A stretch of DNA of 64,000 nucleotides from Dehalococcoidia bacterium (lineage in GTDB: Bacteria > Chloroflexota > Dehalococcoidia > Tepidiformales > Tepidiformaceae). Location of the stretch: positions 36,799 through 100,798 of the forward strand of contig PQAO01000027.1 of the NCBI GenBank assembly GCA_003104995.1. The letters run 5' to 3'. Each line of letters opens with the position of its first letter. Within the stretch, counting starts at the first letter, position 1. Both the position numbers and the translations under genes were made by a program. This document shows positions 23,197-36,077 of the stretch, in pieces. The notes beneath the pieces were generated by a model, which was not told the origin of the DNA, ran no database searches, and saw only the letters and a list, made by a program, of their open reading frames with translations.

Positions 23197-23562
23197 GGGG
23201 ACGAAGGGAATCGACAGGGAGCTAGGTAGCCGGATAGCAGGCCGAGGTTGGGCGTCACCCTCGTAAATCAGGCGGCCAAAAACAAATGGCACTAATCGCC
23301 AACTCGCACTCGCTGCTTAAACCACAGTAGAGGCTGTCCCTCCCGAAGCCCGGCCTGGTAGCGTCGGGAAGGGGCATCGCAAAAGCCAGGATGCCGCGAG
23401 CTCACGCCGATAGCGCTCGCGAAAGATGTATCGGCTGGCTGACGGACGTGAGGACCACCATCGCAGTTCGCCAGTGAGACCCCCATCGGTGGGAAAGCCT
23501 GTAGGACAATTCGGAGCCAACCTTCGCTGGACCGGGAGTTCAACTCTCCCGCGTCTCCACCA
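23197..23562 (+). ncRNA. ssrA: tmRNA (SsrA)
   Basis: 5' GGGGACGAAGGGAATCGACAGGGAG and 3' GGGAGTTCAACTCTCCCGCGTCTCCACCA; acceptor GGGGACG/CGTCTCC; tag reading frame ends CTC GCA CTC GCT GCT TAA (LALAA*); adjacent to smpB. Confidence 0.95.
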
Positions 23563-33867: not shown

Positions 33868-33966
33868 CCTCGCGCCCCGGGGTGGCCGAAACTCGGGGCA
33901 CCCTACCCGCTGGAGGTGAGCCGCCCGGCCTACCAATACCCACGGCACGCAGAGAGCACAACACCA

Positions 33967-34106
33967 AGCGCCAGGTCCGCCATTACGGCGGATGACGAGG
34001 CGGGGGCAGCATCGAAAGACTCGGCGGATGGCCCCCCGGCAGGCACAGCCGCAGGACGCACACAAACCAGCACGGGCAACCGGCTGACAAAGGTGGTCCA
34101 GGTGCC
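33967..34106 (+). ncRNA. glmS self-cleaving ribozyme/riboswitch in the 5' leader of glmS
   Basis: Conserved core blocks in the right order: A|GCGCC (33967-33972), P1 TCCGCC-ATTAC-GGCGGA, TGACGAGG, GGGGGC, ATCGA, CGGCGGATG, GCCCCCC, then possible distal stem GGCAC (34042-34046)/GTGCC (34102-34106). Lies 124 nt upstream of the glmS ATG. Confidence 0.88.
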
Positions 34107-34229
34107 AGGGGTTCGCACCCCCTTCGCTCTTCACATCGTCCCCTTCCGGAACGAACAGCGCCCTTCCCGGGCGTGCCGCGTGCTGCCGTCCGCTCCCTAC
34201 GGGGAGCCAGGCAAAGGGAGAACCTCGGA

Positions 34230-36077
34230 ATGTGTGGAATCGTCGGATATGCGGGTGAACGCCCCGCCATCCCGGTCCTGCTGCGCGCGCTGACGGACCT
34301 GGAATACCGTGGCTATGACTCGGCGGGCATCGCCGTGCTCGACCCGACAAGCGCAGGCCTTCGGATCACGAAGCGGCAGGGCAAGATCGCCAATCTCGAA
34401 TCGGCGCTCAACGGGAGCATCGGGCAGGCGACCACCGGCATCGGTCACACTCGCTGGGCAACGCACGGGAAGCCGAGCGACCAGAACGCCCACCCCCACC
34501 TCAGCTGCAACGGCGAGGTCGTGGTCATTCACAACGGCATCGTTGAGAACTATGCCGAACTTCGCGCCGGCCTTATCGCCGCCGGTCACCGCTTCGCGAG
34601 CGAGACCGACACCGAAACCATCGCCCACCTGATGGAGGACCGGCTGAAGGCGGGTGACTCCCTCCTGGAGGCGCTGCGCCAGACGGCATTACGGCTCCAG
34701 GGTTCGCAGGCGATTGTCGCCATGGCGGAGCGGGATCCGGGCGCCATGGTGGCGGCCCGAGTGGGGAACGCCGGCGGCGTGGTGATCGGATATGGCGACG
34801 GCGAGATGATGCTGGCGAGTGACCTCGCGGCCGTGCTCCCGCTGACGCAGGAGGTCGCCTTCCTGGCGGACCAGCAGCTGGCCCGGCTGGACCGGGCTGG
34901 AGCAGTGTTCATCGATGCGGCGGGGTCTCCAGTGGATGTCCCCCGGCGGAAGATCCCCATCGACCCGGTCAGCGCACTCAAGGGCGAGTACCAGCACTTC
35001 ATGCTCAAGGAGATCATGGAGCAGCCGGAGGCACTCTCCGACACCATCTGGAGCCTCGGCACCCTTGACCCGGCGGAGCTGTACCTGGATGACCTGGGGC
35101 CGGCGCTCGAACGGCTTGGGCAGGTCGAGCGTGTCGTGCTCATCGGCATGGGTACCAGCCTTCATGCGGCCATGATCGGCCAGAGGTACATCGAGGCGTT
35201 TGCCCAGGTGCCCGCCGATACAGACAACGCCAGCGAGTTCCGGTACCGCGACCCGATCGTCGGTCCGAACACGCTCGTCATATCGGTCAGCCAATCGGGG
35301 GAGACGGTCGATGTGCTCGAAGCGATGGCCGTGGCGAAGGCGAAAGGGGCGTTGCAGGTGACCATCTGCAACACCGAGGGGGCCCAGACCACGCGGGTGG
35401 CCGACGGCACGGTGTACACGCGTGCGGGCCTAGAGCGGGGCGTGGCCAGCACCAAGTGTTTTACGGCGTCGGTGGTTGCGCTCTACGTGCTGGCCCTCCG
35501 GCTCGGCCTGGCGAAGGGCAGGATCACTCCCAGTGTGCTCCAGGAGCGGATGCATGAGGTCGCCCGAGTCCCCGAGGCAGTCGCCCGGGTGCTCCGTCAG
35601 GCTCCGGTCTACAGGCGGATGGCCAGGCATTTTGCGACCACCCAGCACCTCCTGTTCCTCGGACGGGGACTTGCCTTCCCGGCCGCCATGGAAGGGGCAC
35701 TGAAAATGAAGGAGATCAGCTACATCCATGCCGAGGGATACGCGGCTGGCGAAATGAAGCACGGTCCGATCGCGCTCATCGACCCCAACTTCCCAACGAT
35801 CGCCATAGCCACGAAGCACGCATTGCGATCGAAGATCGTGTCGAACATCGAGCAGGTCCAGGCCCGCGGGGGCGAAGTCACCGCGGTTGTCACGGAAGGC
35901 GACGAACAGATTGCGAAACTCGCTGATGCGACGATCACGGTGCCGGAGGTGTCGGCGCTGCTTGAGCCGGTGGTGGCTTCGATTCCGCTTCAACTGCTCT
36001 CGTACTATGTGGCGGTGCAACGCGGATGCGATGTCGATCAGCCACGAAATCTGGCAAAAACCGTAACAGTAGAGTGA
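34230..36077 (+). CDS. glmS: Glutamine--fructose-6-phosphate aminotransferase (isomerizing)
   Basis: MCGIVGYAGERPAIPVLLRALTDLEYRGYDSAGIAVLD...GIGHTRWATHGKPSDQNAHPH...SIPLQLLSYYVAVQRGCDVDQPRNLAKTVTVE. Confidence 0.97.
   Translation: MCGIVGYAGERPAIPVLLRALTDLEYRGYDSAGIAVLDPTSAGLRITKRQGKIANLESALNGSIGQATTGIGHTRWATHGKPSDQNAHPHLSCNGEVVVIHNGIVENYAELRAGLIAAGHRFASETDTETIAHLMEDRLKAGDSLLEALRQTALRLQGSQAIVAMAERDPGAMVAARVGNAGGVVIGYGDGEMMLASDLAAVLPLTQEVAFLADQQLARLDRAGAVFIDAAGSPVDVPRRKIPIDPVSALKGEYQHFMLKEIMEQPEALSDTIWSLGTLDPAELYLDDLGPALERLGQVERVVLIGMGTSLHAAMIGQRYIEAFAQVPADTDNASEFRYRDPIVGPNTLVISVSQSGETVDVLEAMAVAKAKGALQVTICNTEGAQTTRVADGTVYTRAGLERGVASTKCFTASVVALYVLALRLGLAKGRITPSVLQERMHEVARVPEAVARVLRQAPVYRRMARHFATTQHLLFLGRGLAFPAAMEGALKMKEISYIHAEGYAAGEMKHGPIALIDPNFPTIAIATKHALRSKIVSNIEQVQARGGEVTAVVTEGDEQIAKLADATITVPEVSALLEPVVASIPLQLLSYYVAVQRGCDVDQPRNLAKTVTVE

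Follow-up and report, generated by a model that had tools for sequence, protein, structure and literature searches.

The locus described here raises two questions: whether the leader of glmS in a high-GC Chloroflexota genome contains a functional glmS ribozyme, and whether such an RNA would differ from the known members of its class. It lies in a window of 64,000 nucleotides, which is the whole stretch of DNA that was analysed. A first-pass annotation, made without database searches, had proposed a glmS ribozyme with an unusually short P1 and a long spacer to the start codon. Judging from its sequence, we are highly confident that the element is a standard glmS ribozyme, probably active, located in the 5' leader of glmS. 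The window copy is structurally ordinary and represents a further example of a known ribozyme class.

Identification of the glmS ribozyme

We scanned the window with cmscan against all 4227 families and found three matches above the gathering scores, namely a tmRNA, a tRNA and the glmS family RF00234. The tmRNA match at 23197-23562 (+) is an ordinary tmRNA gene (RF00023, 129.1 bits). The RF00234 match is full-length (model positions 1-167 of 167) and scores 47.0 bits with an E-value of 8.6e-8, the curated gathering threshold being 37 bits; this comparison was the check that the first-pass annotation had itself suggested. The ribozyme is single-copy in the 3.24 Mb assembly (E-value 1.0e-9). All sequence elements listed earlier are present at their positions (Table 1), and the identification is supported by the family match as well as by the core segments and the link to glmS. 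The proposed cleavage between A33967 and G33968 also holds as an assignment, with AGCGCC aligned to an invariant segment of the model.

The local GC content is high and the cmscan score carries a 10-bit bias correction, which could speak for a resemblance by chance alone in this GC-rich intergenic stretch. However, the E-value stands after this correction, 20 other members of the family carry the ribozyme at the same place, and the covariation described below is better than that of all 500 shuffles. Chance resemblance, to which we assign practically no probability, is already refuted. Among 14 control genomes only two, B. subtilis and Deinobacterium, have an RF00234 match.

The catalytic residue of GlmS is the cysteine right after the initial methionine. 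The N-terminus of the encoded GlmS reads MCGIVGY with this cysteine adjoining the methionine, which fixes the ATG at 34230 and confirms the start codon given before.

Table 1. Elements of the glmS ribozyme, the spacer and glmS in the window, with the evidence for each
Feature	Position	Strand	Evidence
glmS ribozyme, full RF00234 match	33956..34109	+	cmscan, 47.0 bits
Predicted cleavage site A(-1)/G1	33967..33968	+	AGCGCC (33967-33972) on invariant model segment; invariant in 22 relatives
P2.2 5' strand (C2 G3 C4 C5, bulged A6, G7)	33969..33974	+	Pairs with 34022-34026 (C33969-G34026, G33970-C34025, C33971-G34024, C33972-G34023, G33974-C34022; bulge A33973); layout per PMC7125110
P1 hairpin, 7 bp, loop ATTAC	33975..33993 (33975-33981/33987-33993)	+	97.4% paired; both-sided changes in 4/7 pairs
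TGACGAGG	33993-34000	+	Core segment seen in sequence
GACGAGG	33994..34000	+	Invariant in relatives; C33996-A33998 is P2.1 5' strand, partner 34012-34014 (C33996-G34014, G33997-C34013, A33998-U34012)
P2, GGGGGC/GCCCCC	34002-34007/34031-34036 (span 34002..34036)	+	99.2% paired; both-sided changes in 3/6 pairs
ATCGA, inside P2	34011-34015	+	Core segment
TCGGCGGATG, inside P2	34021-34030	+	Core segment
CGGCGGATG	34022-34030	+	Core segment seen in sequence
P3 hairpin	34037..34051	+	98.9% paired
P3.1 5' strand GGCAC (P3 loop)	34042..34046	+	Partner 34102-34106; 97.1% paired; both-sided changes in 3/5 pairs
P4, internal loop ACAAAC/ACAAAG	34054..34099 (34054-34061 with 34093-34099)	+	Both-sided changes in 6/7 pairs
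P4.1, GCAA (GNRA) tetraloop 34076-34079	34068..34086	+	Both-sided changes in 5/7 pairs
P3.1 3' strand GTGCC, 3' of P4	34102..34106	+	Pairs with P3 loop
Spacer between ribozyme and glmS, 123 nt after P3.1	34107..34229	+	Sequence
AAAGGGAG, possible ribosome-binding site	34213-34220	+	Sequence; plausible
glmS, glutamine--fructose-6-phosphate transaminase (isomerizing), 615 aa	34230..36077	+	TIGR01135, 731.6 bits (cut-off 418)

Architecture of the ribozyme and the leader

The paired elements follow the published layout, in which P2.2 consists of C2-G56, G3-C55, C4-G54, C5-G53 and G7-C52 with a bulged nucleotide 6, and P2.1 joins residues 28-30 to residues 43-45 (PMC7125110). GGCAC and GTGCC had been noticed as pairing segments and are indeed present, but they do not form the distal stem that was supposed; they are the two strands of the known P3.1 pseudoknot. 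Contacts through P3.1 and between L4 and P1 have been described for the glmS ribozyme class (PMC11602151). The window copy fits both, with a complementary P3.1 and GCAA in L4, a tetraloop that is GNRA in all 22 relatives. P1 contains two invariant C-G pairs which fit a tetraloop receptor and could be that receptor. P4 is less regularly paired than the other elements (81.7%).

Relatives do not bear out the view that P1 and the spacer are special. P1 has 7 bp and a 5-nt loop here and only 6 bp with a 4-nt loop in the relative at L018, and other relatives likewise have a P1 of equal or shorter length and similar spacers. The coding sequence begins 120 nt past the end of the match; spacers range from 82 to 143 nt in the window's family, so that the one in the window is typical, and from 21 to 567 nt across the phylum.

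The window copy shares with the RF00234 glmS ribozymes of Bacillus subtilis, B. anthracis and Thermoanaerobacter tengcongensis the cleavage site, the GCGCC/GACGAGG/AUCGA/UCGGCGGAUG core, P1, P2, P3, P3.1, P4 and P4.1, the GNRA tetraloop in L4, the location in the glmS leader and, as predicted pairings, P2.1 and P2.2 with the bulged A6. It differs from them in its high GC content, the short P1 of 7 bp, the spacer of 123 nt and the Chloroflexota host, none of which alters the mechanism.

Conservation and covariation among relatives

We aligned 22 homologues, 20 of which belong to the window's family (window included) and two to sister families. When all pseudoknots are included in the structure, standard pairs make up 95.1% of its cells and both-sided changes occur at 21 of the 44 pairs. 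None of 500 shuffles reached any of the five pairing measures, and in a control with slid partners the pairing falls to 32-40%. Compensated pairs occur in P1, P2, P3.1, P4 and P4.1, indicating ongoing selection; compensated variants of P3.1 are, for instance, GCGC/GCGC in L010 and GGTAC/GTACC in L007. The core (A-1 G1 C2 G3 C4 C5, GACGAGG, AUCGA and UCGGCGGAUG) is invariant in the 22 relatives except for A/G at 34028. P2.1 and P2.2 are complementary in all 22 sequences (100% paired, with a bulged A6 or U6), and their pairs never vary, so there is no covariation and their pairing rests on identity and the family model instead. Such invariance is expected for an active site, yet it is no independent proof of pairing.

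Loss of catalysis, leaving either a decaying relic or a GlcN6P aptamer working without cleavage, might be suggested by the score of 47 bits, which is among the lowest in the family, where intact relatives reach up to 72 bits. A competing fold in the GC-rich leader points the same way: the nearest-neighbour fold favours a competing pairing of the ends, GCGCC with GGTGC. The single-sequence fold is more stable than shuffles (z -2.56), and known glmS ribozymes are also reported to form less compact folds that compete with the core pseudoknot (PMC11602151). Against a loss of catalysis, all core positions are intact and identical to the consensus of the active class, no catalytic nucleotide is changed, and the compensatory changes in P1, P2, P3.1, P4 and P4.1 speak for continued selection. 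We therefore consider this reading very unlikely and retain that of an intact ribozyme.

Proposed regulation of glmS

Known glmS ribozymes use GlcN6P as a cofactor to cleave themselves, and RNase J1 degrades the resulting 3' product (PMC7125110). By analogy, we infer GlcN6P sensing, self-cleavage and mRNA decay at the window locus: GlcN6P made by GlmS would bind a pre-formed pocket and serve as cofactor, cleavage of the mRNA would follow between A33967 and G33968, the downstream fragment would thereby gain a new 5' end and be degraded by RNase J, and GlmS synthesis would drop after this decay, which amounts to product feedback on glmS. The genome encodes a protein of the RNase J family (TIGR00649, 618.5 bits, cut-off 400, G000:C21:166128-167750).

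No terminator-like site was found on the + strand of the glmS leader, which led us to reject terminator-based control. Together with the long spacer, this fits control by cleavage and decay of the mRNA rather than attenuation. Alternatively, the ribozyme may cleave while repression does not proceed via RNase J, with the leader altering translation or another nuclease acting. The RNase J pathway is proven in Bacillus and not in Chloroflexota, and a 123-nt spacer in a high-GC leader leaves room for other control, but the RNase J family gene and the leader free of terminator-like sites on its + strand make this alternative the less likely one. The same two observations make the standard feedback by self-cleavage and decay the best explanation.

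Distribution in Chloroflexota

The guess of a Chloroflexota host was right: the closest named GlmS is found in a MAG labelled 'Chloroflexota bacterium' (95%), and the next closest are in MAGs of Dehalococcoidia and Tepidiforma (71-73%); these named relatives also carry a glmS ribozyme. An assignment to Tepidiforma is suggested by GlmS similarity only. The other Dehalococcoidia copies (L054-L058, named MAGs including Tepidiforma KatS3mg062 and KatS3mg064) have the same architecture and occupy the same place upstream of glmS; they differ from the window copy only in the sequence of the loops, P1 and P4.

A match over the threshold was found in 19 of the 25 genomes labelled as own, same genus or same family, and in one further genome the match is cut by the contig end. 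The copy at L022 (G004, 110 nt) was considered as a truncated variant and dismissed, as the contig ends there. glmS lies downstream in every same-family copy whose contig extends far enough. Its apparent absence at L039, L040, L043, L146 and L171 came from too narrow a motif search, and the gene is present.

Across the phylum, about a third of the sampled Chloroflexota genomes (125 of 400) have an RF00234 match. glmS ribozymes are thus a normal feature of Chloroflexota, and the earlier framing of a mostly Firmicutes class with an outlier here does not apply. A canonical glmS ribozyme is now documented in a high-GC, thermophile-related lineage of Dehalococcoidia, whose glmS leader receives a named annotation. 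In the literature searched, with class surveys outside that search, there was no prior glnA-linked or Chloroflexi glmS ribozyme.

Variant RNAs linked to glnA

All assessable matches in the phylum lie upstream of glmS except for some in one different class, which is tentatively assigned to Anaerolineae because the closest named GlmS (63%) belongs to an Anaerolineales MAG. In one family of this group (f74), most of the genomes listed carry a glmS-linked copy together with a second one on a type I glutamine synthetase gene (glnA). About 60 glnA-linked copies (in ~60 genomes) were found, spread over some 25 genera within a single Chloroflexota family (L134:2830-3047, L136:2889-3108, L138:395-602, L139:3662-3879 (-), L142:2805-3008 and ~55 more among L229-L357). 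At the first loci examined, the RNA is located 52-99 nt upstream of glnA, and glutamine synthetase was confirmed by TIGR00653 in three of three cases tested.

The variants (model R1; L134-L144, L229-L383) share with the window-type ribozyme A-1/G1 in most copies, ACGAGG, AAUCG, GCGG and the stems P1, P2, P3 and P4.1. They differ in two extra stems inside P2, in an apparently shifted P2.2 bulge and in having copies on glnA or on an AraC/O6-methylguanine-methyltransferase gene besides glmS. Extra core stems are reportedly known from Deinococcus-Thermus glmS ribozymes, through work by McCown in 2011. For the glnA-linked RNA, compensatory changes occur at 32 of 48 predicted pairs, and the model R1, which was built from it, matches 177 of 298 genomes of the variant class versus 1 of 294 of the window's class. 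As a side observation, the glnA-linked RNAs show covariation between a GGAG-like stretch immediately before the cleavage site and a CUCC-like stretch on the 3' side of P3 (A5 columns 5-8 with 171-174), which would connect the portion lost on cleavage to the RNA body.

The glnA-linked copies have AGCG[G/A]CUG with AUCAGCGG, and the glmS-linked copies of the variant class have AGCGCCUG with AUCGGCGG, or AGCGCAUG/AGCGCAAG with AUCAGCGG. Core position 4 is C in every readable glmS-linked copy and a purine in every glnA-linked copy, and therefore separates the two groups. On a simple reading of these sequences, the P2.2 bulge would have shifted from its place at nucleotide 6 to nucleotide 5 or 4, with U6-A53 and C5-G54 formed. 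A displacement of this bulge has been inferred from in vitro mutant rescue, and covariation of nucleotides 4, 5, 6 and 53 was suggested to stem from bulge shifts (PMC7125110). As a full account, a simple bulge shift fails for the AGCGCAAG/AUCAGCGG copies, in which nothing pairs with A53.

With moderate confidence, we propose that glmS-type RNAs with two additional core stems, in which the P2.2 bulge has shifted from position 6 to 4, came to be used at glnA and, in one family, at the gene for an AraC-type O6-methylguanine methyltransferase. If the variants are active, either they extend GlcN6P feedback to the supply of glutamine for GlmS, or they are variant ribozymes of a class that responds to a different effector. 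RNAs with a displaced bulge that are conserved on glnA in ~25 genera would offer a ready-made test of ribozyme retuning or effector change. This lead outside the window is more interesting than the window ribozyme itself.

Variant copies at other genes

In the family f45, purine-4 copies are found upstream of a gene for an AraC-type helix-turn-helix and O6-methylguanine methyltransferase protein, in some cases followed by an EamA transporter (L359:1501-1784, L370:1501-1805, L377, L358, L361, L363, L367 and L378). One f45 genome has a glnA link. Some f45 copies differ at AUCGA (AUCGG) and before ACGAGG.

Two pyrimidine-4 copies, both with C at position 4, lie upstream of DegT/DnrJ-type sugar aminotransferase genes in G050 and G590 (L204:2502-2743 (-) and L372:1501-1754); at L204 the aminotransferase gene is followed by a Gfo/Idh-like ORF. 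Another pyrimidine-4 copy, in G570, precedes an FAD-linked oxidase gene. G457 has a third copy (L339:287-501), which is purine-4 and has ACAACGAGG in its core; it has no same-strand gene downstream and is adjoined by ABC transporter genes on the opposite strand.
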